From Dongshaea marina (GTDB taxonomy: Bacteria > Pseudomonadota > Gammaproteobacteria > Enterobacterales > Aeromonadaceae), in the NCBI RefSeq assembly GCF_003072645.1, contig NZ_CP028897.1, positions 2,245,658 to 2,309,657 of the forward strand: a DNA stretch of 64,000 nucleotides, read 5' to 3'. Numbering within the stretch: the stretch's first letter is position 1; the number at the start of each line of letters is the position of its first letter. The position numbers and the translations under genes are program-made. The notes under the pieces are model-generated. The model was given only the letters and a program-made list of their open reading frames with translations, ran no database searches and was not told the DNA's origin. Of this stretch, positions 28,065-59,546 are shown in pieces.

Positions 28065-28096
28065 AAGCGGTGATCTGAGTGTCATGATCGCCGCTT
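28065..28096 (+). terminator. Terminator-like hairpin after the SH3b gene
   Basis: AAGCGGTGATC and GATCGCCGCTT form an 11-bp stem with one G-T pair, 16 bases after the stop, followed by GTTGATA. Confidence 0.55.
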
Positions 28097-28259
28097 GTTG
28101 ATACTTATCTTCTGCTCTTGCTCCATTGCCTGGTGCTAACGTGCGCAGAAGCTGGCCTGAAGGAGGTTGGTCAGCACAAAATTTGAGCACTGGTTGTGAA
28201 CCAGAGGGGAATGGGAGTTCCTGTATCTGATCCATCTCCGAAGTGATAGGGGGAGGTTG

Positions 28260-28679: not shown

Positions 28680-28959
28680 CGCCGATAGAGTATGCCGACG
28701 GTATAAGGTTAGCCAGAAATAGAAGAAGATCCCAGTGGCTACAGGACTTATGCTTTACCCAGACTTGAACTGCCAAAAGTTCGATTGAGTATCTGGGGGA
28801 GAACTGGGTTTTGTCGTCTTTCCCACTGAGCTCAAGTGTCGGTGCCATGCCCGGGGGTAACCTTTGCGCCCATCGCAGATATCAGGATCATCTTCGGTTT
28901 ACTTCTCATACTTGTTAGTCATACTTAAAATATTCTCATTCGCATTAAATTAAATCATT

Positions 28960-29370
28960 GTGGATAAGCAACACGGTTCATCGAGCCTTAGGGTCTGTGA
29001 GGGGATCTTAGTTCAGGTAGCGCAGGGGGCCTGGAACCTGCCTATGGCCGAGGAGTACGCAGCAGAGGCAAAGCAATTAATCATTGAAGAACTGCCGCCA
29101 CAATGGGTTCTGCTTGTTGATCTCAGGCAGTGGGACTATTGCCCTCCCGAAGTCTGGGAATATTTCAATGGTGTGTATGAGTGGTATGCCGATCACGGCA
29201 TGATCGCCGAAGGGATCGTCAGCACCCGGAAAATGATTAACCACTTTGTCACTCAGTTGGATAAATACCGGCCTATCCCTTGTGGCCAGTTTTTTTCAGA
29301 AGATTACGAAGAGGTGCGTCAATGGTGTCGCGATCAGCTTAACAGCTACAAGAGGTCGAGCAATGGCTAA
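28960..29370 (+). CDS. STAS/SpoIIAA-like small protein, member 2 of a paralogous pair
   Basis: 136 residues from a GTG start without a clear ribosome binding site. Matching landmarks to its divergent neighbour: GILVQVAQGAWNLPMAEEYA, PPQWVLLVDLRQWDYCPPEV, then DHGMIAEGIVSTRKM, and the end FFSEDYEEVRQWCRDQL. The shared W--LVD-R-W--C-PE-W core argues for a common fold and origin. Its last eight bases overlap the start of the next gene, so they are probably translated together. Function unknown. Confidence 0.6.
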   Translation: MDKQHGSSSLRVCEGILVQVAQGAWNLPMAEEYAAEAKQLIIEELPPQWVLLVDLRQWDYCPPEVWEYFNGVYEWYADHGMIAEGIVSTRKMINHFVTQLDKYRPIPCGQFFSEDYEEVRQWCRDQLNSYKRSSNG

Positions 29371-29737
29371 TCAGGGTAAAACTCAGGTACTACTTACGTT
29401 TGTGGCTTCCCCCGACAAGGTAGATCGGCTTAACACGCTGTTAAAGCTACACGGCGAATGGATCAAAAAGACGCACCACAGGGAAGGCCCTAAGGCTCTG
29501 CTGTCCTATGAGCTTTCCAGCGGCCCGGAGCTATCTAACCCTCTCGACGCGGCATCTGAGCCCACTGGGAATACGCGCTATGTGCTCAATGAAATTTACG
29601 AAACCCCGGAGGGGATTGAGGATCATTGGAAACAGGCGATGGAGAGCTTCCCCGAGGTGATGGATCTTGTTGGCTTGGTGTCTACCTGTTCCCCGCAAAC
29701 TCTCCATGCCGGAGAGATCAAGCACTCGCTGTGGTAA
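29363..29737 (+). CDS. Dimeric alpha/beta-barrel (ABM-like) protein
   Basis: 124 residues from ATG 29363, with AGAGGT ahead, overlapping the previous gene by eight bases. The first strand TQVLLTFVASPDKVDRLNTL, a middle -LSYELS- strand and RYVLNEIYETPEGIEDHWKQ follow the antibiotic-biosynthesis-monooxygenase-like pattern (strand-helix with E-Y--------H). Such domains form dimeric barrels, some of them oxygenases of quinols or haem. No catalytic assignment can be made. Confidence 0.55.
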   Translation: MANQGKTQVLLTFVASPDKVDRLNTLLKLHGEWIKKTHHREGPKALLSYELSSGPELSNPLDAASEPTGNTRYVLNEIYETPEGIEDHWKQAMESFPEVMDLVGLVSTCSPQTLHAGEIKHSLW

Positions 29738-29968
29738 TGGCAGTCAAAGGGGAGGTTCATTTCTTCCCCTTGCCCGAGCCAGTTGTAGAAGCGGACCAAC
29801 AAGGGGCGGTAATAGGAAGATATCACTTTGTGATAGCTGAGCATCTTGTATAGGGCCTCGGTTATTATCGCTCAACCTCTGATCAGAGCCATATGCTATT
29901 GCTAACCTCTTCGATGGCCATGAAGATCTGGTTTATCATACGGATGAACAACCGATGAGGGTCTATCT

Positions 29969-30565
29969 ATGCTTTCTGCTGTTTTATGTGATGACGGTAA
30001 GCACCGTTGCAAATGGTCACTTTCTGCCCCTGAGTTTGTGGATTATCACGATCAGGAGTGGGGATTCCCTGAGGATGACGATTACCGACTCTACGAGAAA
30101 GTTTGTCTCGAGAGTTTTCAGTCTGGGCTTAGCTGGCGAACGATCTTAAACAAGCGTGAGAATTTCCGGTCTGCTTTCCATAATTTCGACTTTAACAAGA
30201 TCGCCCGATTTGATGAGTCCGACATCGAGCGGCTGATGTTGGATGAGGGAATCGTGCGTAACCGCAAGAAGATCGAGGCGGTGATTAACAACGCAAAGCG
30301 CGCTCAGGAGATGGTGAAGGAAGAGGGGTCTCTCGCTGCATTCTTTTGGCAGTTTGAGCCTACAGACCCGAACCGGGCCATAGCCTCGACCTCTCCCGAA
30401 TCGATCGCAATGGCAAAGGCCCTTAAAAAGAGAGGATGGAAGTTTGTTGGCCCAACCACGGCTTATGCCTTCATGCAAGCCATGGGCATTGTCAACGACC
30501 ACAACCAGGACTGTGTGTACTGGGAAAAGGTCGAAGCTGCCAGAAAGGCGTTCAAACGTCCCTAG
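29969..30565 (+). CDS. tag: DNA-3-methyladenine glycosylase I
   Basis: 198 residues, slightly longer than E. coli Tag (187). Zinc ligands are near the ends: HRCKW with a following YHDQEWG, and NDHNQDCVYW (His and Cys). The core SGLSWRTILNKRENFRSAF, the Glu-rich helix, and the helix-hairpin region KALKKRGWKFVGPTTAYAFM are intact. It removes 3-methyladenine from alkylated DNA. A second ATG-initiated frame nearby is a shadow. Monocistronic as far as can be seen. Confidence 0.93.
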   Translation: MLSAVLCDDGKHRCKWSLSAPEFVDYHDQEWGFPEDDDYRLYEKVCLESFQSGLSWRTILNKRENFRSAFHNFDFNKIARFDESDIERLMLDEGIVRNRKKIEAVINNAKRAQEMVKEEGSLAAFFWQFEPTDPNRAIASTSPESIAMAKALKKRGWKFVGPTTAYAFMQAMGIVNDHNQDCVYWEKVEAARKAFKRP

Positions 30566-30757
30566 AATTTGTGGCTTCCCATGGACTTCTGAGATTGGCA
30601 GATCAAGTTGGGGGGACCGAAAAAGAGTGCTGCCACATACCACATATAGATAGGTTGAAGTGGTGCGGGCCCAAGCTCGCGGCTTTTCAGCCTAACCCTT
30701 TACTTATGCTTCGTCCGGTTTGGTCGATACTTAAGATAGAAGTAGAGAGGTGATGCT

Positions 30758-30976
30758 ATGCCAAACCAAGATATGCTCATTCCGATAATGCCCCGGCCGC
30801 CAGCCAAGCCTGGTAGCGGTGAGATCAAAAGAGAAGTCAATAAGATCAATAAAAAGCAGAAGATCAAAGAGGGCGAAGCCAGTGCCGGAACTCAGAAGCA
30901 CCGTCCGGAGCAGCAGAGCGTCGAGACGCCCAAAGAGGATAAACAGGATAAGGGGGGCATTGACACTTACGCCTGA
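30758..30976 (+). CDS. Small charged protein of unknown function
   Basis: 72 residues with AGAGGTG five bases ahead of the ATG. MPNQDMLIPIMPRPPAKPGS is followed by a very basic then acidic, low-complexity tail (EVNKINKKQKIKEGEASAG, ETPKEDKQDKGGIDTYA). Probably disordered and cytoplasmic. No family recognised; the good ribosome binding site is the main support. Confidence 0.5.
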   Translation: MPNQDMLIPIMPRPPAKPGSGEIKREVNKINKKQKIKEGEASAGTQKHRPEQQSVETPKEDKQDKGGIDTYA

Positions 30977-30979
30977 GTC

Positions 30980-31007
30980 TTTTCAATTGTGAGCGCTCAG
31001 GTATAAT
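30980..31007 (+). promoter_or_regulatory. Sigma-70-type promoter for yoaA
   Basis: A perfect -10 TATAAT at 31002-31007 with a weak -35 TTTTCA at 30980-30985 (16-bp spacing). Transcription would begin near 31014, leaving a leader of only 10-20 bases before the likely TTG start of yoaA. Confidence 0.5.
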
Positions 31008-31034
31008 CTTGGCTTTTCATGGTTGGGGCCGGCT

Positions 31035-32969
31035 TTGGTCAGTTCACTCTTTGCTTCTGACGGGCCTTTGGCTCGTAACATCTCAAAATTTTCACCTCGT
31101 AAGCAGCAGACCCAGATGGCTGAAGCGGTTGCCAAGGCGATCGAGCAGCAGCAATGCCTGTTGGTTGAAGCTGGCACCGGGACAGGGAAAACCTTTGGTT
31201 ACCTGGTGCCCCTGCTTAAATCCGGCAAAAAAGTGGTGATCAGTACCGGCTCCAAGGCTCTGCAGGAGCAGCTTTTTTTAAGGGATCTTCCGGCGATCAC
31301 CAAAGCCCTTGAGATCTCGGAGCCAACGGCCCTGCTTAAGGGGCGCTCCAATTATCTCTGCCTTGAGCGTCTTGGACGCTTTGCGATGCAGGGGGAGTTT
31401 CAGACCCGTGAGCAGGCTGCCGAGATCACCCGGGTGAAACGTTGGTCTCAACACAGCAAAGATGGGGATGTGAGCGGGATCCCCGAGCTTCGGGAAAACT
31501 CCGATATCCTGCCATTTATCACCAGCACCAATGATAACTGCCTGGGGCGAGAGTGCAGCCATTACGAGAGTTGTTATCTGGTTAAAGCCAGACGCAAGGC
31601 AATGGAGGCACAGCTGGTGGTGATCAACCACCACCTGTTTTTTGCCGATATATCGGTTAAAGATACGGGCTTTGGTGAGTTGCTCCCGGATGCGGGTGTT
31701 TATCTGTTTGATGAGGCGCATCAGCTCCCGGAGATTGCCACCCAGTATTTTGGCAAAGCCCTTTCCAGTCGTCAGGTATTTGAGCTGTGTAAAGAGATCA
31801 CCATCGCTTATCGCACCGAGGCCCAGGATAGCAAGCAACTTGGAAAGGCTGCCACCCACCTTGAGAACGCAACTCGTGATATGCGACTGGCCTTTGGGCG
31901 GGATAACAACCGGGGTGAATGGTTTGAGCTGCTCGCCAGCGGCAGCCTCCAGGGCCCCATCACGCGCTGGCACGATGCCTTTAACCTTTGTTATGAGCTT
32001 CTCAAGCTTCAGCTCGGACGAGGTGAGGTGCTGGATCGCTGCTTCGAGCGGGTAGTCGAGTTTCGCACTCTACTCGATCAGCTCGATGGTCAGCGCCAAC
32101 CCGGCTACTGCTGCTGGTACGAGAGCCATGGCCAGAACTTTTCGCTGAATATCACGCCACTTTCGATCGCCGAGCGCTTTTCCCAGGAGATCGAAAAAGA
32201 GAATGTCAGCTGGATCTTCACCTCGGCGACCCTCACGGTGGATGAGCGTTTTGATCTCTTTACCCGGGAGATGGGGATAGAAACTTACCAGCAGCTGATC
32301 CTGGGAAGTCCCTTCGATTATCAGAATCAGTCGTTGATGCTGCTACCCCGCTACCTGCCGCCGGCTAATCAATATGGGCGGGGCAAACTACTGGTCAAGC
32401 AGATGTTGCCCCTGTTTGAGACTGTGCGTGGCGGGATCTTCTTTTTGTGTACCAGCCATCAGCTGATGCAGGAGGTGGCCGGGGTGTTGCGTGATACCTG
32501 TTCACGCAATGTTTTGCTACAGGGTGAGGAGAGTAAACAGCGGCTGCTCAAACAGTTTACCGAGGACGGGAAGGCGATTTTGGTGGCAACCGCCTCTTTT
32601 TGGGAGGGAGTTGACGTTCAGGGGGAGGCCCTGAGCTGTGTGGTGATCGACAAGCTGCCCTTTAGCTCCCCGGATGACCCCCTGATGAAAGCCCGGGTTG
32701 ATGATTGTCGAATGGCAGGGGGCGATCCTTTTGCCGAGCTGCAACTACCCAAGGCGGTGATCGCTCTAAAGCAGGGAGCCGGGCGGCTGATCCGTGATGG
32801 CAGTGACACCGGAGTGCTGGTACTCTGTGATCCCCGGCTGGTGAGCCGTAATTACGGACAGCTATTTCTTAAGAGCCTTCCTCCCATGCCAAGGACTCGG
32901 GAGCGGAGTAAGGCACAAGATTTTTTTCATTCACTAGATAAAGCAACAAGAGAGTTTGAGCATGAGTAA
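31035..32969 (+). CDS. yoaA: ATP-dependent DNA helicase YoaA (XPD/DinG family)
   Basis: About 644 residues; the start is a TTG at 31035 or 31023, as no in-frame ATG exists nearby. SF2 motifs: PRKQQTQMAEAV, Walker A EAGTGTGKTFGYL, iron-sulfur cysteines in YLCLERL, DNCLGRECSHYESC and nearby, VVINHHLFFAD, Walker B YLFDEAHQLPE, FTSATLT, LVATASFWEGVDVQG and the C-terminal LKQGAGRLIRD. E. coli YoaA pairs with HolC and helps unblock damaged replication forks. The last eight bases overlap tsaB, as in enterobacteria. Confidence 0.92.
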   Translation: MVSSLFASDGPLARNISKFSPRKQQTQMAEAVAKAIEQQQCLLVEAGTGTGKTFGYLVPLLKSGKKVVISTGSKALQEQLFLRDLPAITKALEISEPTALLKGRSNYLCLERLGRFAMQGEFQTREQAAEITRVKRWSQHSKDGDVSGIPELRENSDILPFITSTNDNCLGRECSHYESCYLVKARRKAMEAQLVVINHHLFFADISVKDTGFGELLPDAGVYLFDEAHQLPEIATQYFGKALSSRQVFELCKEITIAYRTEAQDSKQLGKAATHLENATRDMRLAFGRDNNRGEWFELLASGSLQGPITRWHDAFNLCYELLKLQLGRGEVLDRCFERVVEFRTLLDQLDGQRQPGYCCWYESHGQNFSLNITPLSIAERFSQEIEKENVSWIFTSATLTVDERFDLFTREMGIETYQQLILGSPFDYQNQSLMLLPRYLPPANQYGRGKLLVKQMLPLFETVRGGIFFLCTSHQLMQEVAGVLRDTCSRNVLLQGEESKQRLLKQFTEDGKAILVATASFWEGVDVQGEALSCVVIDKLPFSSPDDPLMKARVDDCRMAGGDPFAELQLPKAVIALKQGAGRLIRDGSDTGVLVLCDPRLVSRNYGQLFLKSLPPMPRTRERSKAQDFFHSLDKATREFEHE

Positions 32970-33663
32970 AATTCTGGCAATCGATACAGCAACCGAGGCA
33001 TGTTCCGCCGCCCTAATGGTGGGAGAGCAGGTTTTAACGCGCTGTGAGGTCGCACCCCGGGTTCATGCTCAGCGGATCCTACCCCTGGTGCAGTCTTTGC
33101 TGGATGAGGCGGGCCTATCTCTGGGGGAGCTCGATGCTCTGACCTTTGGGCGTGGACCGGGTAGTTTTACCGGGGTGCGCATCGGTATCGGAGTAGCCCA
33201 GGGCCTGGCATTTGGCGCCGAACTTCCGCTGCTCCCTGTCTCTAATCTAGCGGCTCTGGCCCAGGGGATGCACAGGATCTGTGGTGCCGACAGGGTGATG
33301 ACTGCCATCGATGCCCGGATGAGTGAGATCTACTGGGGACGTTACGAACTTGATGCTCAGGGCTTAATGCGCTCGCTGGAGGAAGAGCTGGTGGTTCCGC
33401 CTCAGCTTATTCATGAGCGCCTCCCTGAGCAGGGCAAGGAGTGGCAGCTGGCTGGCACAGGTTGGGAGGCTTACCCAGAGCTGATGCAGACCCTGACCGG
33501 TCATTCACTTGAGGGCGAGTATTTGAGACTTCCTGAGGCGCAGGATCTATTGCCACTGGCTGTGGATGCGCTGGCCCGGGGAGAAACTGTGTCTGCCGCA
33601 GAAGCAACCCCGGTTTACCTGCGTGACAAGGTCACCTGGAAAAAGCTTCCGGGACGGGAGTAA
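32962..33663 (+). CDS. tsaB: tRNA threonylcarbamoyladenosine synthesis protein TsaB
   Basis: 233 residues from ATG 32962; two codons of an earlier TTG frame are discounted. ILAIDTATEACSAAL, ALTFGRGPGSFTGVRIGIGV, GLAFGAELPLLPVSNLAALA, VMTAIDARMSEIYWGRY and the C-terminal PVYLRDKVTW are characteristic. TsaB dimerises with TsaD in the complex that adds t6A to position 37 of ANN-decoding tRNAs. Overlaps the end of yoaA, indicating coupled translation. Confidence 0.93.
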   Translation: MSKILAIDTATEACSAALMVGEQVLTRCEVAPRVHAQRILPLVQSLLDEAGLSLGELDALTFGRGPGSFTGVRIGIGVAQGLAFGAELPLLPVSNLAALAQGMHRICGADRVMTAIDARMSEIYWGRYELDAQGLMRSLEEELVVPPQLIHERLPEQGKEWQLAGTGWEAYPELMQTLTGHSLEGEYLRLPEAQDLLPLAVDALARGETVSAAEATPVYLRDKVTWKKLPGRE

Positions 33664-33724
33664 TTAAAGATTGAGTTGATGGAATTGTGGTGTGGCACGG
33701 CCGCACCCTGACAGGGAGCTGGTA

Positions 33725-34165
33725 ATGAAATACGCGGTGTCATTTGTTTTTCTGCTTTTAATGATCTCCTTCAGGCTATGGGCGGCAGAGAATTGCAATG
33801 ATGCTGCAAATACCCTGGCGATTAACCAGTGTATGGCGAAACAGAGTCAACAGGCGGAACGCCTGTTGGATAAGTATTTCGAAGCGAGCCTTAAGCGCTG
33901 CCGGGAGAATGATAAGCTTAGTCTAGCGACTTCCAAGGAGAAAAGCGCTGCCAAGGGACTGCAACAGGCGCAGTCCCAGTGGTTGAGCTATCGCAAGGCC
34001 CAATGTAGCGCCGTTTATCAGTACTGGGCCGATGGCAGCATTCGCAACGCCATGTATCTTCAATGCATGCTGGATCTGACTCGCCAGCGTACTCACTATC
34101 TGTGGCAGACCTACCTGACCTATATGGACTCGACTCCGCCCGCTCTCCCGGATCCAAAGTCGTAA
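33725..34165 (+). CDS. Exported LprI-like (DUF1311) protein
   Basis: 146 residues from ATG 33725 with GGAG six bases ahead. Signal peptide MKYAVSFVFLLLMISFRLWA, then the cysteine-bearing DUF1311 pattern: ENCNDAANTLAINQCMAKQ, a long helix, QSQWLSYRKAQCSAVYQYWA and YLQCMLDLTRQRTHYL. The domain resembles the lysozyme inhibitor LprI N-terminal region. Probably periplasmic with disulfides. Follows tsaB by 61 bases, possibly in one transcript. Confidence 0.8.
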   Translation: MKYAVSFVFLLLMISFRLWAAENCNDAANTLAINQCMAKQSQQAERLLDKYFEASLKRCRENDKLSLATSKEKSAAKGLQQAQSQWLSYRKAQCSAVYQYWADGSIRNAMYLQCMLDLTRQRTHYLWQTYLTYMDSTPPALPDPKS

Positions 34166-34176
34166 CTTTGTAGAGA

Positions 34177-34665
34177 CTAACAGCTTGGGGGGCCGAGCAG
34201 AAGTTCACCCTCGATCGGGATAAAGCGACTTGCCGAATCGATGAGGGATTTAGCGGTGAGCTGCGGGACGCCGTAAACCTCAACATCTACTCCGAATTTA
34301 TCCCGCAGCTTATCTGCCAGCAGTGAAAAATCCCCATCACCCGAGACCAGCACCACCAGATCAACCTCAGGCGCATACTCAATGCCATCCAGGGTGATTC
34401 CTACATCCCAATCCCCTTTGGCGGAGCCATCGGCCCTTTGAATAAAGGGCTTGAGCTTGACCTCAAAGCCAATGGCCCTGAGGATATTCTGAAACTGGCG
34501 CTGTTTTTCATCCCCCCTGTCCACGGCGTAGGCCATCGCCCTGACTATCTCACGATCCTTGGTTGCCTCGGCCCAGAATCGGTTGTAGTCGAAGTTTTGT
34601 TGATACGCCTGGCGCGTGGTGTAGTAGACGTTTTGCACATCGACCAGCAGTAGAGCTTTTTGCAT
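34177..34665 (-). CDS. NYN-domain (LabA/DUF88) putative ribonuclease
   Basis: 162 residues from ATG 34665. ALLLVDVQNVYYTTRQAY holds the first acidic metal ligand; then GDEKQRQFQNILRAIGF, KGDWDVGITLDGIEYA with further Asp residues, VDLVVLVSGDGDFSLLADKL and the final GVDVEVYGV. These are the PIN-like NYN motifs (DxxN, KGxD, SGDGDF). Such proteins are predicted Mg-dependent RNases. Convergent with the DUF1311 gene, 11 bases apart. Confidence 0.85.
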   Translation of the reverse strand: MQKALLLVDVQNVYYTTRQAYQQNFDYNRFWAEATKDREIVRAMAYAVDRGDEKQRQFQNILRAIGFEVKLKPFIQRADGSAKGDWDVGITLDGIEYAPEVDLVVLVSGDGDFSLLADKLRDKFGVDVEVYGVPQLTAKSLIDSASRFIPIEGELLLGPPSC

Positions 34666-34816
34666 TGAACCAACCTTTGCATCTGATCTGAGCGCGCTCA
34701 ACGGGTGAGGATTGAGTTTTGGCTCTTCGCAACCCGGGTCCGCTCTTTGGGGGAGACATTACTGTAAAAAAGGGCCTGAGTCACTGAGTAATGACAGTCT
34801 CTTGGTGACCTTTCTA

Positions 34817-35608
34817 TCAAAGCTCTAGCACCTCGCCATCTTCGGGGATCAGTACCTTGTCCATAAGATCTTGTGTCTCAAGTAAGCGCCGTAGTGTGTG
34901 GCGATCGATTGGGCAATGATTCAGGGCCTCCATGTGATTAGCGATGACGCGGCCCGGAGAAAGGCGGATGAAATCCAGAACTTCCTCTTTGGGCATTAAC
35001 AGAGGTTGGCCCAGATCCATCTGTGCTTGCCCTGCGGCAACTACAGTGATCTTCGGTTTTAACTCATTGAGTGCTCGTTTCACATCTTCGGTCAGTACAG
35101 TATCACCGCTTATATAGAGGGAGGGCTCATCGGGCAGCTCAAGGTAGAAGCCGCAGCCATTAGCCATCAAGCGGTGAATCCAGCCATGACCATGTTTTGC
35201 AGGAATCGCTGTTATCTTGCCTCCAAGAAAATCCTGGGGCTGCCAATTTTCCAGACCACACATCACTGTTATGCCATATTTTTCCAGATAAACTTTATCT
35301 TTGCTTGGAGCTATGACGGGGATCTGGTGTTGGATTAAAAAACGTTCTCCATCTGCATCCAGATGATCACTATGCTGCAAGGGTTTAAATCCAAAACATC
35401 GGCTGTGGGTCACCAGGGCATGGGTCACTTTCCCGAGTATCTCCTGGCTATTATCAGGTAGTTCAACCAGTGGATTTCGCTTGAGTTTAAAGCGCATCAC
35501 CGAAAATGGCGGGAGCGAGCCCATGGCTCCAAGCATGGGATCAACCAGTATGAAAGAGTTGCCTGATTCAATGACAAAGGTTGCACTGCGCAGATGGTGT
35601 ATTTTCAT
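34817..35608 (-). CDS. MBL-fold metallohydrolase (UlaG/YfhI-like)
   Basis: 263 residues. KIHHLRSATFVIESGNSFIL and VDPMLGAMGSLP open the beta-lactamase fold. THALVTHSRCFGF then HSDHLDADGERFL carries a divergent metal motif. It continues ITAIPAKHGHGWI, LYISGDTVLTEDV, ITVVAAGQAQMD and VIANHMEALNHC. The first HxH is replaced by THSR, so metal ligation may be atypical. The substrate is unknown; related proteins are lactonases or phosphodiesterases. ATG 35608 has AGAGGA ahead. Confidence 0.8.
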   Translation of the reverse strand: MKIHHLRSATFVIESGNSFILVDPMLGAMGSLPPFSVMRFKLKRNPLVELPDNSQEILGKVTHALVTHSRCFGFKPLQHSDHLDADGERFLIQHQIPVIAPSKDKVYLEKYGITVMCGLENWQPQDFLGGKITAIPAKHGHGWIHRLMANGCGFYLELPDEPSLYISGDTVLTEDVKRALNELKPKITVVAAGQAQMDLGQPLLMPKEEVLDFIRLSPGRVIANHMEALNHCPIDRHTLRRLLETQDLMDKVLIPEDGEVLEL

Positions 35609-35704
35609 CTCATCCTCTTTCGATTGTGCATACTCCTTTGGCAAGGATAGATAAAACCCAAGGGTATTGCGCCATAGAGTCTATGTAAGGATCTCTTGTA
35701 CTAT

Positions 35705-36727
35705 CTATCCAGAGATCAGAGCATTTTTGTCCATTCCAGAGCTGTTGCTGTCTTTGATTGTTGAGTGAGCTGCATAGCGATTCGCCAGGGTCGCGCAGTA
35801 GAAGATCTGTAGCTGGTGGTAGAGCATGATGGGGAGCAGGATCATTCCCAACATCGGGATGGCACCGAAGATCACCTTGGCCATCGGTACTCCCTGGGTC
35901 AGACTCTTCTTGGTTCCGCAAAATACAGCGGCGACCTCATCTGCCCGGCTGAAGCCTAGTCGACGGGTGAGCCAGATGAGAAGGTGTACCACAATACCCA
36001 GCAGACCGGCGCAGCTTAGAATTGCCAGCAGTAGGGTGCTGATTGAAAAGCCGTGCCAGATCCCTTCAACCACAGAGTTGCTAAAGGCGTTAAATACGAT
36101 TAGCAGCACCACACACTTATCGACAGGGTTAATGATCACCCGATATTTTTCAATCAGTTGCAGCAACAGCGGACGCAGCAGCTGACCTGCCAACATCGGT
36201 AGCAATAGAATTCTGCCAATCGATTCTATGGTGTTTAAGAGATCAATAGAGTTACCCCGGGTCCCCAGCAGCAGCTGAACCAGCAGCGGGGTGAGCAACA
36301 CTCCGAGAAAGCTTGAAAGGGATGCATTAAAGATGGCTGCGGGGACGTTACCCCGGCCAACGCTGGTCATGGCAACCGAGGAGGAGACCGCGCTTGGAAG
36401 CACCATCAGGTAGCAAAACCCCATCGCCAGGGCGGCTGGCATATAGGCTCTAAATCCGTGGCTCAGCACCAGCCATAGCAGTGGATAGAGGATAAAGGTG
36501 GCTCCCTGGACTGTCAGGTGTAAGCGCCATCCACTGAGCTCTTTAAGGATCACCTTAGGGCACAAGCTGATCCCATGTAGGAAAAAGATCAGGGCAATGC
36601 CAAATTGAGTCACAATCTCCAGATGTAATATGCCGCCGGACTTCCCAAAACCCGGGAGCAGAGTTGCCAGAATGATCGCCGTGAGCATGCCGAGTAAAAA
36701 CCATTGTTTAACAAGAAAATGGCGCAT
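35705..36727 (-). CDS. Bile acid:sodium symporter-like transporter (YfeH/SBF-like)
   Basis: 340 residues with about ten hydrophobic segments, start ATG 36727 with AGGAA ahead. Key SBF_like stretches are LIFFLHGISLCPKVILKELS, AAIFNASLSSFLGVLLTPLL, VIFGAIPMLGMILLPIMLYH and the conserved FCGTKKSLTQGVPMAK. Inner-membrane carrier; substrate unknown (E. coli YfeH is also uncharacterised). It is divergent from an AraC-type regulator, which probably controls it. Confidence 0.88.
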   Translation of the reverse strand: MRHFLVKQWFLLGMLTAIILATLLPGFGKSGGILHLEIVTQFGIALIFFLHGISLCPKVILKELSGWRLHLTVQGATFILYPLLWLVLSHGFRAYMPAALAMGFCYLMVLPSAVSSSVAMTSVGRGNVPAAIFNASLSSFLGVLLTPLLVQLLLGTRGNSIDLLNTIESIGRILLLPMLAGQLLRPLLLQLIEKYRVIINPVDKCVVLLIVFNAFSNSVVEGIWHGFSISTLLLAILSCAGLLGIVVHLLIWLTRRLGFSRADEVAAVFCGTKKSLTQGVPMAKVIFGAIPMLGMILLPIMLYHQLQIFYCATLANRYAAHSTIKDSNSSGMDKNALISG

Positions 36728-36807
36728 GAAGAGTTCCTGGTGTTGCCGATGAGTCTGCACTAGATTACTCTCGGTGGAATTTCCTGCTATCGCCAACTGG
36801 ATAATAA

Positions 36808-37590
36808 ATGTCGAATAGAAGACAACTTCGCCCGGTTCCGGATCTCAACCAGCTACCACGGCCGGTGTTTGCCAGAATTGCCAGCTGGGACCACCAGGGC
36901 ACCGAAACCCGCTGGCATCATCATGCCTGGGGACAGTGGGTATACGCCATCGAGGGAGTTTTGGAGGTTCATACCCGGCGGGCTCGCTATTTTGCCCCGC
37001 CACAGTTTGCGGTCTGGATCCCCCAGGGGGAGGCGCATCAGATCATCTCAGGTAGTGCAGCCAAGATGCGCAGCCTGTATATAGAGACGGATCGGCTTCC
37101 CGGCACGCGTTGGTCTTTCCCGTGTGTGTGTGAAGTTTCACCCCTGGTCAGGGAATTAGTTATGACCTTTTGTGAGTTCCCGGCTGAATACCCGCTGGAT
37201 AGTCCACACAGTCGGCTGGTTCAGGTTCTGCTGGATGCGATTTCCGAGCTTCCTCTGGCTGCCAACTCTTTGCCATTGCCATTCGATAAACGGCTGCTGT
37301 TGATCTGTGAGAAGTTGCAGGCAAGGGTCAATCTGTCTGTGAACATGGAGCAGCTTGGCTCTGAGGTCGGGCTCTCGGGACGCAGCGTCAGCCGGCTGTT
37401 CAAATCACAAACAGGGTTGAGCTTTCAGCAGTGGCGGCAGCGGCTTCGGTTGCTGCATGGAGTATCCCTTCTGGAAAAGGGGGAATCGATCACCAATATC
37501 GCATTGGCTTGTGGTTACGACTCCCTCTCTGCCTTTGTAGCCGCTTTTAAAAAACAGTTTGGCAGAAGTCCTGGCCAGTATTTTGGCTAG
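36808..37590 (+). CDS. AraC-family regulator with N-terminal cupin (NimR-like)
   Basis: 260 residues. The N-terminal cupin ETRWHHHAWGQWVYAIEGVL and FAVWIPQGEAHQI suits small-ligand sensing. The C-terminal double HTH reads LGSEVGLSGRSVSRLFKSQT, LSFQQWRQRLRLLHGVSLL, ITNIALACGYDSLSAFVAAF and KKQFGRSPGQYF. Divergent from the SBF-like transporter with 80 bases between starts, an arrangement like NimR-NimT, so it probably regulates that transporter. Confidence 0.88.
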   Translation: MSNRRQLRPVPDLNQLPRPVFARIASWDHQGTETRWHHHAWGQWVYAIEGVLEVHTRRARYFAPPQFAVWIPQGEAHQIISGSAAKMRSLYIETDRLPGTRWSFPCVCEVSPLVRELVMTFCEFPAEYPLDSPHSRLVQVLLDAISELPLAANSLPLPFDKRLLLICEKLQARVNLSVNMEQLGSEVGLSGRSVSRLFKSQTGLSFQQWRQRLRLLHGVSLLEKGESITNIALACGYDSLSAFVAAFKKQFGRSPGQYFG

Positions 37591-37602
37591 GGGAAGGGCT
37601 AG

Positions 37603-37626
37603 GGAGGGAGTGTGAAGACTCCCTCC
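37603..37626. terminator. Hairpin between the AraC-type gene and metB
   Basis: GGAGGGAGT (37603-37611) and ACTCCCTCC (37618-37626) form a perfect 9-bp stem between convergent stops. Confidence 0.65.
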
Positions 37627-37635
37627 GGGGCAAGA

Positions 37636-38850
37636 TTATAGGCTGTTTTCCAGGCTGGGCTCTTTTGCCTGGATACTCTGATTGTGGACCACCTTCTCAA
37701 AAGCTTGTTGTAAATCTGCCTGCAGATCCTCAGCAGACTCGATTCCCACCGAGATCCTCAGAAGATTCTCGGTGATCCCGGCGGTCTTTTGATCTTCCGG
37801 AGCCACGGCGGCATGGGTCATGGTTGCCGGATGGCAGATGAGACTCTCGACGCCACCCAAAGATTCAGCCAGGGAGAATAACCTGAGTTCGCGGCTAAAC
37901 TGGGCGACCGCCTCCACACCGCCCTTGATTTTAAATGAGATGATTGCGCCAAACCCGGTTTGCTGTTTGTTGGCGATCTCATAGGTGGGGTGACTTGGCA
38001 GGCCTGGGTAGTAAACAGATTCAACCTGGGGATGCTGCTCAAGGTATTCGGCGAGGCATAGGGCATTTTGGTTGTGGCGTTCGATACGTACATCCAGGGT
38101 GCGTAATCCCCGCAGGGTAAACAGGCTGTCAAAGGGAGCGCCGGTGATCCCGAGCGTGTTAGCCCACCACTTGAGATCTTCAACCAGCTCCGGGGTTTTC
38201 CCGATAACGGCTCCACCGACCACATCGCTGTGCCCATTGATATATTTAGTGGTGGAGTGCACCACTATATCTGCTCCAAGGGCCAGTGGCTGTTGGGATA
38301 TGGGCGACAGGAAGGTGTTGTCCACCACCACAGTGGCTCCCTTTTCATGGGCTAGCGCACTGACTTTGGCTACATCGATAACCCGCAGCAGGGGGTTACT
38401 TGGTGTCTCAATCCATACTATTTCGGGATGACGATTGAGGGCCTCGGTCAGCGCGGCTTCATCGCTTTGATCGACAAAGTCGACGGTGATCACCCCCTTT
38501 TCTGAGAGTGACTTAAACAACCTGAAACAGCCACCATAACAATCGTGAGGCGCGAGAAGTCGTCCGCCGGATTTCAGAAGCTGGATTACCAGCAAGGCCG
38601 CTGACATGCCGCTGGAAGTGATCACTGCACCTGCGCCTCCCTCGAGTTTGGCAAGGGCATCGGCGAGTAACTCTCGGGTTGGGTTGCCAGAGCGGGTGTA
38701 GTCATACTGCCTGGGCTCATTGAAATCGTGAAAGCTAAAGTTGCTGGAAAGATACAGTGGAGGGGTGATGGCACCATGCTGGGTATCGGTCTCTATTCCT
38801 GCGCGAACGGCTTGGGTCTGGGAGGAGATGTCTGGGTTATGTGTGCTCAT
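37636..38850 (-). CDS. metB: Cystathionine gamma-synthase (PLP-dependent)
   Basis: 404 residues. TQAVRAGIETDTQHGAITPP, YDYTRSGNPTRELLADALAK, SSGMSAALLVIQLL, APHDCYGGCFRLF, VVVDNTFLSPISQQPLALGA and the PLP-lysine motif VVHSTTKYINGHSDVVGGAV are present. C-terminal SLGGVESLICHPATMTHA and LLRISVGIE complete the Cys/Met-metabolism fold. It joins O-succinylhomoserine and cysteine to cystathionine. A lyase role cannot be excluded by sequence, but the MetJ operator upstream favours MetB. ATG 38850 has GGAG six bases ahead. No metL follows, unlike E. coli. Confidence 0.87.
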   Translation of the reverse strand: MSTHNPDISSQTQAVRAGIETDTQHGAITPPLYLSSNFSFHDFNEPRQYDYTRSGNPTRELLADALAKLEGGAGAVITSSGMSAALLVIQLLKSGGRLLAPHDCYGGCFRLFKSLSEKGVITVDFVDQSDEAALTEALNRHPEIVWIETPSNPLLRVIDVAKVSALAHEKGATVVVDNTFLSPISQQPLALGADIVVHSTTKYINGHSDVVGGAVIGKTPELVEDLKWWANTLGITGAPFDSLFTLRGLRTLDVRIERHNQNALCLAEYLEQHPQVESVYYPGLPSHPTYEIANKQQTGFGAIISFKIKGGVEAVAQFSRELRLFSLAESLGGVESLICHPATMTHAAVAPEDQKTAGITENLLRISVGIESAEDLQADLQQAFEKVVHNQSIQAKEPSLENSL

Positions 38851-42130: not shown

Positions 42131-43555
42131 ATGCAGATTTCTCCCCATGATCCCCAACGCTGGGCCCAGCACATCTTTGGTTCGGCACAGCTTGGAGACG
42201 TGCGGCGTACAGCCCGGTTAGTCACACTCGCCAGCCATTGTGGTAGACATGTGGGGAAATCTTTGGCCGCTTCCTGTGAGGGTGACGATGCCCTGCTTGA
42301 AGGCAGCTATCGCTTTATCCGTAATCCAAAGGTCGAACCAATGAAAATACGTCAGGCTGGTTTTGAAAGGACAGTTGAGATAGCCCAGGATATTCCCGAA
42401 CTCCTGGCTCTGGAGGACACCTCTTCATTAAGTTACAAGCACCAAGCCGCTTCGAAGCTGGGGAAATTAGGAAAGAAGGAGGATAAATCAAGAGGATTCT
42501 GGGTGCATTCCCAGTTACTACTCAATGCCCGAACGCAGCAAACGATAGGGTTGGTTCATCAGGAGTGGTGGTTGCGGCCGGATAACCCTGAGGATGCAGA
42601 CGAGAAAGAGAGTGGTAAGTGGCCCGATGCGTCAGCCCTTTGCCGACACAGGATGGGAGCGCTGATGTCCCGGGTGATCACCGTTTGTGATCGAGAAGCA
42701 GATATCTTTGACTATCTCAAGGATAAGAAGGAGCACCAAGAAAGATTTATCGTGCGGGCAAAGCATATGCGCAAAGTGGAAGAGTCCGGACTCCCTTTAG
42801 ATGAACATCTGCGCTCCCAAGCTTCCCTGGGCGGATATGAGCTTCATATCCCTCAAAAAGGGATGGTAGATAAGCATGGGAAACGGAAGAATCGGCCGAC
42901 TCGCAAGGCGAGGCTACAAGTCTTTAGCAGCTCATTGACCCTCACTCAGGGGGGCAGAACTCTCACCCTCAACGCAGTACTGGCTGAAGAGCTGGGTCAG
43001 CCTAATGGTGCAGAGCCGATCCGCTGGCTTCTGCTGACCAGCGAGCCAGTTTCAACTCTGGAAGAGGCCCTGAAAGTTATCCAGAGCTACACGGCCAGAT
43101 GGCGAGTGGAGGATTTCCACAAAGCCTGGAAATCCGGTGCAGGTGTAGAAGAGCTAAGAATGGGGTCGGTAGACAATCTGGAGCGAATGGCGTCGATACT
43201 TGGCTTTTCAGCGGTTCGGCTGATGCAGTTGCGGGAGAGTTTTACCTTGCCACTCAGCCTGAAGAAGCTGGGCCTGATTAAAGAGGCGAAGGAGGTCAGT
43301 CAGATAAGTGCGTCACGAGTGCTTACCGGAGAAGAGATTAAGCTCTTGATCTTGCTGCGCAATAAGAAGCAAACGTTCGAACCGAGTTTGGAGTGGGCTT
43401 ACCAGGAGATTGCAAAGCTGGGAGGGTTCAATGATACCAAACGAAGCGGGATCGCAGGCTGGGATACTCTCTGGGAAGGTTGGAATCGACTTCAGGATTA
43501 TCTTCGAGGATTTATGGTTGCCAGAGAGGCTATGACTTCAGGCTTGGAGATCTGA
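42131..43555 (+). CDS. tnp: IS50/Tn5-type transposase
   Basis: 474 residues (Tn5 Tnp is 476) and homologous throughout: LGDVRRTARLV, EGSYRFIRNPKVEP, LLALEDTSSLSYKHQ, DKSRGFWVHSQLLL, EWWLRPDNPEDADEKESGKW, VITVCDREADIFDYL, LLLTSEPVSTL, and YTARWRVEDFHKAWKSGAG. The DDE triad is Asp96, Asp187 and Glu327 with the YREK signature Y320/R323/E327/K334. At the Tn5 inhibitor start (Met56) this protein has Leu, and the next in-frame Met is 71, so an Inh-type shortened product from that site is not evident. AAGG lies ten bases ahead of the ATG. Confidence 0.95.
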   Translation: MQISPHDPQRWAQHIFGSAQLGDVRRTARLVTLASHCGRHVGKSLAASCEGDDALLEGSYRFIRNPKVEPMKIRQAGFERTVEIAQDIPELLALEDTSSLSYKHQAASKLGKLGKKEDKSRGFWVHSQLLLNARTQQTIGLVHQEWWLRPDNPEDADEKESGKWPDASALCRHRMGALMSRVITVCDREADIFDYLKDKKEHQERFIVRAKHMRKVEESGLPLDEHLRSQASLGGYELHIPQKGMVDKHGKRKNRPTRKARLQVFSSSLTLTQGGRTLTLNAVLAEELGQPNGAEPIRWLLLTSEPVSTLEEALKVIQSYTARWRVEDFHKAWKSGAGVEELRMGSVDNLERMASILGFSAVRLMQLRESFTLPLSLKKLGLIKEAKEVSQISASRVLTGEEIKLLILLRNKKQTFEPSLEWAYQEIAKLGGFNDTKRSGIAGWDTLWEGWNRLQDYLRGFMVAREAMTSGLEI

Positions 43556-54159: not shown

Positions 54160-56445
54160 ATGACTCAGCGTAAAGAGGTGGATTTACAAGAGTGGGAAGG
54201 TTTTACGGCAGGTGACTGGCAAACCAGGGTTAATGTCCGTGACTTTATTCAGAAAAACTACACGCCTTATGAAGGGGATGAAAGCTTCCTGGCCGGAGCC
54301 AGCGAGGCAACCACCCGCTTGTGGCAACAGGTGATGGAGGGGATCCGCGAGGAGAACCGTACCCATGCGCCCATCGATTTTGATACCGATCTTCCTTCAA
54401 CCATTACCTCACATGATGCCGGTTATATCGACCAGGATCTTGAAACCATCGTGGGTCTGCAAACCGAAAAGCCACTGAAGCGGGCGATCATCGCTAATGG
54501 TGGGATCCGTATGGTGGAGTCCTCCTGTAAAGTCTATGGTCGTGAGCTGGACCCCCAGGTGAAGAAGATCTTCACCGAGTATCGCAAGACCCATAATCAG
54601 GGGGTGTTCGATGTCTACACCCGGGATATTATCAACTGCCGTAAGAGTGGGGTGCTGACTGGTTTGCCCGATGCTTATGGCCGGGGTCGGATCATCGGTG
54701 ATTATCGGCGGATCGCCTTGTATGGGATCGATTTTCTGATGCAGGATAAGGCCGAGCAGCATAAGTCTCTGGAAGCCAGGCTATCCTCGGGTGAGGAGTT
54801 GGAAGCAACCATTCGCCTGCGTGAAGAGATCTTTGATCAGTACCGGGCACTGGAGCAGATCAAAGAGATGGCAGCAAAATATGGCTGTGATATCTCTAAG
54901 CCTGCTCAGACCGCCCAGCAAGCGGTGCAGTGGACCTATTTTGGTTATCTGGCGGCGGTTAAATCACAAAATGGCGCGGCGATGTCGTTTGGCCGTACCG
55001 CGACCTTCATCGATATCTATATTGAGCGTGATCTGAAAAAGGGTCTCATTACCGAGTCGCAGGCTCAGGAGCTTATCGATCACATGGTGATGAAGCTACG
55101 GATGGTTCGCTACCTGCGTACCCCGGATTATGATCAGCTGTTCTCCGGCGATCCCATCTGGGCAACCGAGGCCCTGGCCGGGATGGGAGTTGATGGTCGG
55201 ACTCTGGTGAGTAAGACCACCTTCCGCTACCTCAATACTATGTATACCATGGGACCATCTCCTGAGCCGAATCTGACCGTGCTCTGGTCGGAGGCACTGC
55301 CTGAGAACTTTAAGAAGTATTGTGCAAAAGTTTCAATCGATACCTCATCGATTCAGTATGAAAATGACGATCTGATGCGTAATGACTTCAACAATGATGA
55401 TTATGCGATCGCTTGCTGTGTCTCGCCGATGATCCTGGGTAAGCAGATGCAGTTCTTTGGAGCCAGGGCGAATCTCGCCAAGGGATTGCTGTATGCGATC
55501 AATGGTGGGGTGGATGAGAAGCTCAAGCTACAGATCGCGCCTAAAGCCGACAAGATCAGCTCCGAAACCCTGGATTACAGCGAGGTGAGAGCGAACTTTG
55601 ATAAGGTGATGGATTGGCTTGCCGAGCAGTATGTGACGGCGTTGAACTGCATCCACTATATGCATGACAAGTACAGCTACGAAGCCTCCCTGATGGCACT
55701 GCATGACCGGGATGTTGAACGCACCATGGCCTGTGGTATTGCCGGACTCTCGATTGCTGCAGATTCACTGTCGGCAATCAAGTATGCCCGAGTGATGCCG
55801 GTTCGTGATGCAGAGGGGATCGCTATCGATTTTGAGACTGAGGGTGATTTCCCTAAGTTTGGTAATAATGATGAGCGGGTGGATGCCATTGCCTGTGAGC
55901 TGGTGGAGTGCTTCATGGAGAAGATCAAAAAGCACCCAACCTATCGCAATGCCAGACCGACTCAGTCGATCCTGACCATCACCTCCAACGTGGTGTATGG
56001 CAAAAAGACCGGCACCACTCCCGATGGCCGTGAAGCGGGAGCTCCTTTTGCGCCCGGTGCCAACCCAATGCATGGCCGGGATGAGAAGGGGGCAGTGGCC
56101 TCATTGACTTCGGTCTCCAAGCTGCCCTTTGCCTCGGCACAAGATGGGATCTCTTACACCTTCTCTATTGTTCCGGGAGCCCTGGGTAAGGATAGTGAGG
56201 CTCAAAAACTCAATCTGGCGGGTTTGATGGATGGCTACTTCCATCATGAGCAGGACAAGGTTGAGGGTGGCCAGCATCTGAACGTCAACGTGATGAATCG
56301 CGAGATGCTGCTCGATGCGATGGAGCACCCCGAGAGCTATCCTCAGCTGACGATTCGGGTATCCGGTTATGCGGTGCGCTTTAACTCGCTGACCAAGGAG
56401 CAGCAGCAGGATGTGATCACCCGGACCTTTACCTCAAGCCTGTAA
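54160..56445 (+). CDS. pflB: Formate C-acetyltransferase (pyruvate formate-lyase)
   Basis: 761 residues from ATG 54160 (GAGG eight bases ahead; an earlier ATG at 54133 is possible). The catalytic cysteines are in [17 protein letters not shown] (Cys419 and Cys420). The glycyl-radical loop is [20 protein letters not shown] (Gly736). AWEGF-like start [20 protein letters not shown] and the bulk follow E. coli PflB/TdcE. It cleaves pyruvate with CoA to acetyl-CoA and formate during fermentation. The activating enzyme PflA is not adjacent. Its last 140 bases are repeated downstream of the KAP NTPase gene. Confidence 0.94.
56306..56445 (+). repeat. pflB 3'-end repeat, copy A
   Basis: The final 140 bases of pflB match 58797-58936 with eight mismatches (about 94%). 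A 57-base stretch running through the stop codon is identical. Similar AAGCTTCC hairpin terminators follow both copies. The two copies flank the KAP NTPase segment in direct orientation. Confidence 0.9.
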
Positions 56446-56468
56446 GTCTGGACCTGTTCTGATAAACA

Positions 56469-56496
56469 AAAAAAGCTTCCCCAGGGAAGCTTTTTT
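56469..56496. terminator. Bidirectional terminator after pflB
   Basis: AAAAAAGCTTCCC (56469-56481) and GGGAAGCTTTTTT (56484-56496). Confidence 0.9.
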
Positions 56497-56579
56497 ATTT
56501 TAACTTAAGTCTTGTCTCACAAATTTTAATTAAAGGAGGTCACACTCTGTGCCCTGCGCTATCAAAAATAGAGTTGATG

Positions 56580-57974
56580 CTACCCATTTAACTGGATATT
56601 AAAGTTTGAAGAAAACTCAATCACCTTAACCAAGTCATGAAGTTTTACTCTTTCTCCTTGATTCTGAAGCCTTATAATCTCCTTAATAACGGCAGTGTAT
56701 CGATGCCTTTCAGGGGTTGATTCTCTAGTGGATTCGAGCTTTGTTTGATAATGGGTGCTTGCTGCGAACAGATTATTTCCATTTCTTTCTTTGGAGCATG
56801 CAATCTTTGCTTCTAAAGATATTAAAAGTGCTGGTTCTGCAATTTTTATATCACCTGAAATATGACGTATCATATCTTCTATTGATAGCCTTTCGCATAT
56901 AAAGTCTTGATACATATTGGGTTCTTTCGTCTTTAGCACAATTAAGAAGATGAATAGGGTGTTGTCAATCATGGTTACTCGTTGCATGTTTGCAACCATA
57001 TGCACAATTGAAATGCAATACTCCATCTCTCTCAATGTTAATTCATAAGAATCTGATAAAAACCTGAACACATCAAAAAGCTCACGAATATCGCGGTTGT
57101 TTATATCCAGTTCATATCTATTAAACAGCACATTTGCATATGTATCTCTTCGTGGTGCTGGAAGTATGTAGTCAAAATTGATGAACCTTCTCAAGTATCC
57201 ATTAGTATTGAAGTCATTGCCATATACCGCTCTGATTGAATGTCCCAGCTGCTCTTTATCAATGCTCAACACGAAAACTACATTTTCTACACTGAAAATA
57301 TGTTTTATTCGCTCCAAAATCTCAATTGCAAATTTTGGATTGCATCTATCTAACTCATCAACAAAGATGACCAATGGCTTATCTTTGTTCAGCGTGCTAA
57401 CCAATTCAGTAAGGGACTTCTTGAAGTTATCAATGGTTTGCTTTGATTCTCCATAACCTTCAATCATGCTCTTTGCAATGGATTCAGATAAAGTGGCTGT
57501 AATGGACTCATATTTCTTTGCATCAGCATGACCTTCCAGCATGTGGCTAACATCAAAAATGCCATAGCTTAACATCTTAACAGCTGCTGGAAGTGTTGCT
57601 TTCAGAGCTTTCTTACCAAACTTTGTAACCTTGTCTATACCTTTCTTTATCTTACTATCATCAGCATGGTTAATCTTCGATATCTCACCAGTAAGCTCAC
57701 CAATGAGCGCGACAAGAGCATTCTCTGCATAATCGGTTTCCCATGCGCTGAAATATATAGACGGAATTTCTATTCCTGTTGATTTGAGATATGCATCCCA
57801 CATCTTAACGAAGGTCGTTTTCCCATTTCCCCAGCTACTATCAATGGACAGAACCAATGGGGTGTCCGCAGTTTTTATGAATTGAGTGAGGAACTTTATG
57901 GTTTCTTCTCTATCGAGTGAATCATGTTGGAAGGGATTTCCTTCGGGTATGTCTATCTTATTGCACTTTATCAT
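56580..57974 (-). CDS. KAP-family P-loop NTPase
   Basis: 464 residues. Walker A SIDSSWGNGKTTFVK (GNGKTT at 49-54), IYFSAWETDYAENALVALIG after it, Walker B LVIFVDELDRCNPKFAIEIL (Asp206, Glu207), then VVFVLSIDKEQLGHSIRAVY and the conserved YLRRFINFDYILP. These are the KAP NTPase motifs. The membrane-insertion segment typical of some KAP proteins is only weakly suggested (ALKATLPAAVKMLSYGIFDV). Bacterial KAP proteins are patchily distributed and several are linked to defence islands or mobile DNA. The gene is markedly more AT-rich than pflB and tpm and sits alone between two pflB 3' repeats, so horizontal acquisition is likely. Function here unknown. Confidence 0.88.
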   Translation of the reverse strand: MIKCNKIDIPEGNPFQHDSLDREETIKFLTQFIKTADTPLVLSIDSSWGNGKTTFVKMWDAYLKSTGIEIPSIYFSAWETDYAENALVALIGELTGEISKINHADDSKIKKGIDKVTKFGKKALKATLPAAVKMLSYGIFDVSHMLEGHADAKKYESITATLSESIAKSMIEGYGESKQTIDNFKKSLTELVSTLNKDKPLVIFVDELDRCNPKFAIEILERIKHIFSVENVVFVLSIDKEQLGHSIRAVYGNDFNTNGYLRRFINFDYILPAPRRDTYANVLFNRYELDINNRDIRELFDVFRFLSDSYELTLREMEYCISIVHMVANMQRVTMIDNTLFIFLIVLKTKEPNMYQDFICERLSIEDMIRHISGDIKIAEPALLISLEAKIACSKERNGNNLFAASTHYQTKLESTRESTPERHRYTAVIKEIIRLQNQGERVKLHDLVKVIEFSSNFNIQLNG

Positions 57975-58796
57975 TTGTATACTCTGTTATTATTGGTTAT
58001 CTTCTGCTGACAACCTTACCATCGCAATCAACATAGCTCCACAGTAGAAGCGAATCTTCGATAATTCAATAGGTAGCAGTGTCTCATCGCTGCTGATTGT
58101 TGACCCTAAGACGACAAATACACTGTACCCTGATTTGTTCGTAGGGACATTCACAGGTTGAGTTTATTTACTCCCAACAGAGTATGAGCACACTTATATG
58201 ATTGCTGGAGTTGAACATACAACATGAGAAGATCATAGCGATATCGTTGGCCAGAATGTTCCTCATCAAAGGAAATGACTTGATGGTGAATTACACTCTA
58301 GCATCTTAAACCAGTTCGAAACCACCGTAGATATAATGGCAACTTCGCTACATTCCTTCCAGATGCACGAAGAGCTGCTGATGCTTCTAAGCATGATTGG
58401 GCAATGGTTTACGACGAAAGCATGTCCCAATGATGATTGATAAGTTTCCTCTAAGGTAAGTTGAACGGCCCCGCATTCGCGGGGCTTTTCTTTGGATGTG
58501 AGCCAAAACTGAAATTTTTATTTTTTCCCAGAGAAATGAGAGAATTTTATATGGAGTGTTGTTTAGATATTCACCAGATACTGCTAATAATTGATTCGGA
58601 GAACCAGATACTGGTGGTATTTTTCAGGGCGAGAATGAATTAGATAAAGTTCTCAAAATGCAGCCATGGGCCAAGCAAATGATGCATATACATAATATGA
58701 ATCAAATTCATTAAATGAGTATTCGGGGCATACAACACAATCGCTGTGCTTGAATCATAGATAAAGGAATGTTATCAGGATGTCATAGGTGCAAGG
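57975..58796. other. Low-coding AT-rich part of the island-like segment
   Basis: No convincing gene. Between about 58280 and 58440 two overlapping short frames look faintly protein-like (for example HSSILNQFETTVDIMATSLH in one and FLPDARRAADASKHDWAMVY in another), each without a good start. They may be remnants of a decayed cargo gene. No integrase or transposase frame is visible. Confidence 0.4.
58468..58490 (+). terminator. Rho-independent terminator inside the island-like segment
   Basis: GCCCCGC (58468-58474), ATTC loop, GCGGGGC (58479-58485), then TTTTCTTT. It implies that a rightward transcript once ended here, consistent with a decayed gene just upstream. Confidence 0.75.
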
Positions 58797-58936
58797 TGTT
58801 GCTCGATGCGATGGCGCATCCGGAGAACTATCCTCAGCTGACGATTCGGGTCTCAGGTTATGCGGTGCGCTTTAACTCGCTAACCAAGGAGCAGCAGCAG
58901 GATGTGATCACCCGGACCTTTACCTCAAGCCTGTAA
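58797..58936 (+). pseudogene. pflB: pflB 3'-end fragment (repeat copy B)
   Basis: An in-frame but headless piece of pflB coding [20 protein letters not shown], then [20 protein letters not shown] and FTSSL with its TAA at 58934. It carries the glycyl-radical motif but no upstream enzyme. Against the intact gene there are eight base changes, only two altering residues (Glu to Ala, Ser to Asn). It is followed by its own terminator. It may be the original 3' end displaced by an insertion, or the relic of a second pflB gene. Confidence 0.88.
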
Positions 58937-58957
58937 GCCTGGCTCTGAGCTAAAAAG

Positions 58958-58986
58958 AAAAAAGCTTCCTTCGGGAAGCTTTTTTT
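58958..58986. terminator. Terminator after the pflB fragment
   Basis: AAAAAAGCTTCC (58958-58969), UUCG tetraloop, GGAAGC (58974-58979) and a T7 run. Same stem as the terminator after pflB with a different loop. Convergent with the next gene, so probably bidirectional. Confidence 0.88.
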
Positions 58987-59000
58987 GTGCCTGGCTTGCG

Positions 59001-59546
59001 CTATTTGCCTGCTGGCCGAACCAGAGTGTAGGTGACGGCTGGCAGGCCCAGATCGGGGGCGGCGGCAGCCTTAAGAACCAGGGTCTTATCACTCAGGGAG
59101 GCGATGGTTAGTTTAGAGCTGATAAAGGGAGAGCTGGCATTTTCCGGGAAGATCAGCTGCTCATCCTTGATGGTAAAGGGCAGGCTGGCACTACTGCTAC
59201 TGAAGGAGGCGATCGTCAGCTGTGAACGATCGCTCTTGGTCACCGTATTGCTGTGAGTTCCCGTGGTCGATACCCAGTAACTTCCCTCAACTTTAAAGTT
59301 CTTGGCACTGCTCCCGGCTAAACTTTCGACATACTGATCCAGCAGCTGCCCATCATAGCCATAGTGGGAGCCAATAGCTCTGGCAACGTCCGAGGAGGAG
59401 GGCTGCTGAGTGCTTAACTGCCACTTCCCCTGGATGCGGTCAAAGGTGCTTAAAGAGTGGTGACGATACACAAAGAAGGCGGTAATCAGGACAATAATAA
59501 ATACGATGGCGATGGCTGCATTACGGGCCATGACTCGATTCGACAT
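59001..59546 (-). CDS. Single-pass membrane protein of unknown function
   Basis: 181 residues. A basic start (MSNRVMARN), one transmembrane segment AAIAIVFIIVLITAFFVY, then a periplasmic domain of about 150 residues: FDRIQGKWQLSTQQPSSSDV, YWVSTTGTHSN, ASLPFTIKDEQLIFPENASS and LVLKAAAAPDLGLPAVTYTL. The middle resembles lipocalin-like 'IQGKW' beta proteins, but the match is short. No catalytic motif. A monocistronic gene between the pflB fragment and fur. Confidence 0.65.
   Translation of the reverse strand: MSNRVMARNAAIAIVFIIVLITAFFVYRHHSLSTFDRIQGKWQLSTQQPSSSDVARAIGSHYGYDGQLLDQYVESLAGSSAKNFKVEGSYWVSTTGTHSNTVTKSDRSQLTIASFSSSSASLPFTIKDEQLIFPENASSPFISSKLTIASLSDKTLVLKAAAAPDLGLPAVTYTLVRPAGK

Follow-up and report, generated by a model that had tools for sequence, protein, structure and literature searches.

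The KAP family of NTPases includes several defence proteins, among which PifA and Qat act against phages. Tmn is a KAP family NTPase that also acts against phages and has two unusual transmembrane domains, according to the excerpted text of its description (PMC11846954). The Escherichia coli prophage e14, which has the integrase gene intE, resides in icd, and the duplicated tail of this gene comprises 165 bp with 12 exchanges and two changed residues, as given in the excerpted text of PMC11148124.

The DNA analyzed here, referred to as the window, is a stretch of 64,000 nucleotides of the Dongshaea marina genome. It contains a locus that is e14-like in anatomy: as with icd and its icdC duplicate, the host gene is whole upstream and a diverged copy of its 3' end lies on the far side, here over 146 bp with 10 exchanges and 4 changed residues. 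Unlike e14, the enclosed segment is only about 2.5 kb long, is located at pflB, and has no recognised integrase. The following features were defined (strand given where assigned; methods in brackets).

54160-56445, plus strand: pflB, 761 aa from the ATG at 54160, an intact extra copy not adjoining pflA (ORF list, genome search)
56300-56445, plus strand: 3' end of pflB, first repeat copy (repeat alignment, edge scan)
56469-56496, plus strand: terminator-like hairpin 3' of pflB (terminator scan, folding)
56580-57974, minus strand: KAP-family NTPase, PADLOC candidate phage-defence protein PDC-S20, 464 aa (Pfam, PADLOC)
57975-58790: AT-rich stretch with neither a good open frame nor a convincing known relative (ORF list, profile and DNA searches)
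58467-58486, plus strand: third strong terminator-like hairpin, between the KAP gene and the orphan tail (terminator scan, folding)
58791-58936, plus strand: orphan pflB 3' end, second repeat copy, last 48 codons including the stop (repeat alignment, own-genome search)
58958-58985: terminator-like hairpin 3' of the orphan tail (terminator scan on the minus strand only, folding)

The pflB repeat and the DNA it encloses

As the earlier note had described, bases 56306-56445 of pflB recur at 58797-58936 with 8 mismatches in 140 positions. The repeat extends 6 bases further in the 5' direction, so that 56300-56445 and 58791-58936 differ at 10 of 146 positions, and its 5' edge is abrupt, with an identity of 2/20 before 56300 and 17/20 after it in ungapped 20-base steps. 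Host pflB is intact, and beyond the insert lies a second copy of its 3' end, the arrangement known from e14 and icd. A search of the same genome with 56280-56460 ranked the orphan tail second (93% identity, E 1.7e-59), while the three remaining matches were 76-80% identical, which excludes chance as the source of the repeat. The similar hairpins reported 3' of the two repeat copies were also found: AAGCTTCC forms a hairpin of 12-13 pairs, confirmed by folding, with energies of -15.8 kcal/mol after pflB and -16.1 kcal/mol after the orphan tail (z -3.83 and -3.51, respectively). The terminator scan detected the former on both strands and the latter on the minus strand only.

Between 56446 and 58790, the GC content of all six stretches that were measured was 36.7-41.5%, compared to 56.0% and 56.8% at the pflB end, 54.8% in the orphan tail, and 53.6% in the following gene; the short stretch holding the hairpin after the orphan tail had 44.4%. 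This shift in composition coincides with the edges of the pflB repeat, and the enclosed DNA is foreign to its neighborhood, as expected of an island of the e14/icd type.

The only gene between the repeats is that of the KAP protein. The remaining approximately 800 bases had been termed decayed sequence, but decay is not demonstrated: the longest listed open frame lying entirely inside 57975-58790 has 60 aa, and the strong hairpin at 58467-58486 is also located there. Translated in six frames, with stops written as X, 57960-58800 gave no Pfam matches at E ≤ 1 and, from PHROGs, only phrog_7178, a family whose function is unknown (E 0.13). These six-frame searches thus revealed no recognisable integrase or transposase, in line with their reported absence between the repeats. 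At the DNA level, 57975-58790 matched, besides itself, only four stretches of 21-28 bases in 61 genomes including its own, and three of the four fall on the hairpin at 58467-58486. Rfam yielded 8 matches, every one under the gathering score. When the segment DNA was compared with phages and plasmids, all but one of the matches listed were to the pflB/grcA tail, the exception being a Pantoea KAP gene. The 15-mer TGCTCGATGCGATGG was considered as a recombination core repeated in the genome and rejected: of its two further genomic copies, one is within a 185-aa frame, and the second is on the strand opposite a long frame resembling an ABC transporter by eye. Elsewhere in the window, at 42131-43555 and about 11 kb before the pflB locus, there is a transposase gene with matches to the Pfam families Tnp_DNA_bind (E 7.2e-14) and DDE_Tnp_1 (E 4.5e-7).

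The KAP NTPase and its relatives

The single AT-rich gene between the repeats was verified by Pfam to be of the KAP family (KAP_NTPase, E 1.9e-39). The encoded protein is a full-length match to the single-gene phage-defence candidate PDC-S20: PADLOC model PDLC04959 covers residues 2-459 of 464 (E 3.4e-130), while the matches to the PifA models (E 2e-21 to 4e-20) and QatA (E 6e-23) were weaker. Both Walker motifs are intact, with Walker A (WGNGKT) at residue 48 and Walker B (VDELD, within LVIFVDELD) at 201. The KAP P-loop core is common to this protein and to PifA, QatA, and Tmn. The highest mean hydropathy over 19 residues is 1.2; therefore, in contrast to the excerpted account of Tmn (PMC11846954), the protein has no clear membrane segment. 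Qat has partner genes, whereas the window segment holds one gene.

The predicted structure has a mean pLDDT of 82.7. Its best match among solved structures was RdrA of the RADAR system (E 4.4e-6, TM 0.37, rmsd 12.8), followed by Orc2/Cdc6; viral structure matches were chiefly clamp loaders and AAA ATPases. From this model only an AAA+-like core can be claimed, the RdrA match being too weak for more. A search of solved structures by sequence returned only short matches in the P-loop region. PDC-S20 denotes a candidate system, and the KAP protein probably serves as a single-protein phage-defence ATPase. By analogy, we infer that it would detect infection and then halt the growth of the phage or of the cell. 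No paper naming PDC-S20 was found in the open-licence literature.

KAP matches at E 1e-20 or better were present in 48 of 394 genomes of the order, this one included. The four best other homologues in the order are 38-40% identical; three of them span residues 2-459 and one residues 3-380. A scan of genome contigs found at least 58 KAP loci in many phyla, and at least 112 relatives were found in viral contigs, of which 80 were kept; a single-sequence scan of viral contigs had 0 confirmed. Among the 36 viral-contig relatives tested, taken from these 80, 20 had a tyrosine-integrase (Phage_integrase) match over the cut-off. A PDC-S20-type KAP gene at L108:8747-11397 directly adjoins a gene with the Shedu SduA_C domain, a possible defence pair, and in another genome a transposase gene adjoins a KAP gene. 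Based on this company (viral contigs, integrases, Shedu, and a transposase), the KAP family travels, at times with neighbors suggesting defence.

A KAP relative with 30% identity lies between attC-like repeats in the Vibrio anguillarum record MK672802, where the annotated integrase gene is beside rplT. The region 26666-38249 of this record, which is filed as a Vibrio phage, contains host genes of the thrS-infC-rpmI-rplT type, the integrase gene, and an attC-like array including the KAP gene; we take this array to be the Vibrio superintegron.

When KAP homologues were checked for the pflB junction, as the earlier note had proposed, a pflB tail was present in 0 of 138 KAP-bearing loci. The flanking repeats at six other KAP loci had nothing evident in common with the window locus.

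The extra pflB gene and its tails

The PFL search of the genome gave 10 match rows. One of these genes is the pflA-linked pflB at C1:3518434-3520707. A tree of 32 PflB proteins, rooted at its midpoint, places this pflA-linked copy within the sequences of the host family, whereas the window copy groups with sequences from two other families in the same order (fork 96/88) on a branch of 0.29. On this tree, window pflB is a deep paralogue or an acquired gene. A PFL gene split over two frames was observed at C1:1493863-1496180 (L049:3864-6181), near genes that by eye resemble those of threonine dehydratase, a permease, and acetate/propionate kinase. Absence of pflA within 1.5 kb downstream of pflB is common, being seen at 12 of the 29 loci of relatives examined. 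In genus g4 the DNA 3' of pflB varies by species and was not pflA in the 11 loci seen; one g4 pflB locus (among L017-L030) contains genes that look IS200/IS605-like by eye.

Six of the 10 differences between the two tails are silent and four change a residue in the orphan relative to the pflB copy. If one copy had simply drifted, 2.4-3.0 silent differences would be expected (P 0.015-0.045 with transition weights of 1, 2, and 4). This suggests that the two tails diverged largely as functioning gene ends, although the test is weak and includes no model in which one copy is under selection and the second drifts, a combination that would give a better fit. The 10 sites were also compared with 31 distinct tails, left from 42 after removal of own and identical copies but with the own pflA-linked pflB and GrcA tails retained. 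The rarer state was in the orphan at 7 sites and in the pflB copy at 1; of the remaining two sites, one leans toward the pflB copy and the second gives no decision. Such an excess of rarer states in the orphan would also be given by decay of a duplicate or of an orphaned original tail.

These data bear on the first alternative to insertion at a gene end, in which two related pflB genes once stood in tandem, the KAP segment arrived, and the second gene was lost save for its last 48 codons and terminator. The bias toward silent differences suits two working genes, the genome is rich in PFL genes, and the window copy is an extra one from outside the host family's own clade. The repeat search, on the other hand, finds a pflB match only from 58791 on and none in 57975-58790, and no tandem was present among the pflB loci of relatives, each having one tail within 1.5 kb. 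We consider this history rather doubtful.

Recurrent use of pflB as an attachment gene was not upheld in 394 genomes of the order, 275 of them with a match: among the matches listed, the window orphan is the only one. No orphan tail was present in 37 genomes of genus g4. Two short frames ending in the pflB tail, in G249 and G448, proved to be frame-disrupted pflB genes with no insert rather than orphan tails. Outside this check are a frame of 505 aa in G449, a pair of short frames in G032, a fragmented genome in which one of the pair lies where a contig starts, and a frame of 102 aa in G035. The fur loci of 29 relatives, one of them incomplete, contained no homologue of pflB, TPMT, or 59001-59546 within 1.5 kb, and with no pflB there these loci offer no empty site for comparison. 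The host genus was represented in the searches by this one genome, and within that narrow scope neither of the findings named as refuting in the earlier note was encountered. Neither a larger version of the element nor another genome with the pflB/KAP junction was found in the searched genomes and loci.

Phage records were considered as the source of the attachment copy and rejected, since both of the records opened, out of the three best, hold the complete host focA-pflB-pflA. A tail match was present in 1532 phage records, of which 40 were listed; many other listed matches bear the names glycyl radical cofactor, pyruvate formate-lyase, or hypothetical and come from phages of approximately 155-170 kb. 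The two opened records, ON470599 and PV468777, are filed as coliphages although they include an entire host ycaO-focA-pflB-pflA region. The open-licence literature yielded no paper on pflB as an integration site of genomic islands.

Origin of the segment

The explanation we favor, with moderate confidence, is that an e14-like element, an island or a prophage, inserted at pflB and left a remnant in which the KAP gene was retained. A small foreign element (a prophage, satellite, or island) would have entered the 3' end of the extra pflB gene, supplying its own pflB tail and terminator, so that pflB stayed whole. The old host tail would have been stranded beyond the insert, which is what happened with e14 in icd; on this reasoning, pflB would now end in the tail of the element, and the orphan would be that of the host. 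The integrase and nearly everything else may then have been lost, the PDC-S20 KAP NTPase being the sole open gene kept. If an element enters the 3' end of a gene, the gene should remain whole, its tail should be present twice with an abrupt 5' edge at the crossover, and the DNA between the copies should be foreign; all of this was seen. The minimal island with KAP cargo proposed in the earlier note is supported in part, with respect to the foreign composition, the candidate defence-family cargo, and the intact pflB with an orphan end; recurrent attachment at pflB is not supported. Since no integrase, empty site, or second junction was found, and a lost tandem pflB or a homologous crossover would leave the same scar, the locus is not classed as an integrase-borne island.

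Integration could also have proceeded with no site-specific integrase, if a circular molecule bearing the KAP gene together with a 3' piece of pflB had been joined by a single RecA-type homologous crossover in the tail. The layout would be the same, a whole gene and a 5'-truncated copy, and the missing integrase would be accounted for; distant KAP relatives do occur on plasmids, where 49 records matched at E 1e-10, each with less than 60% identity. However, 146 bases of homology are short for an efficient crossover, and no plasmid record was shown to have a pflB tail beside a KAP gene (1 of 49 inspected). We regard such an origin as unlikely.

Distinctly improbable is a defence element of about 2.5 kb with cargo only, which would attach at pflB and be moved in trans by the integrase of another element; it would consist of the KAP gene, with a pflB tail and a terminator by which the host gene is kept whole. 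The suggestion that the KAP gene is an integron cassette and the pflB duplication a separate event can hardly be credited: it recalls the relative between attC-like repeats near an integrase gene in MK672802, but a scan for boxes alone detected no RYYYAAC/GTTRRRY pair 46-159 bases apart in 56446-58800, and it is at the pflB repeat edges that the composition shifts.

The feature is thus of a familiar sort, and at most the attachment gene is unusual. If the e14-like remnant is the true explanation, pflB would join the genes whose 3' ends act as integration sites. The PDC-S20 gene would again be the last retained part of a lost mobile element, which would be indirect evidence of its use to the host. 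If instead the element consisted of cargo only, a defence gene could move with nothing but the tail of a gene.
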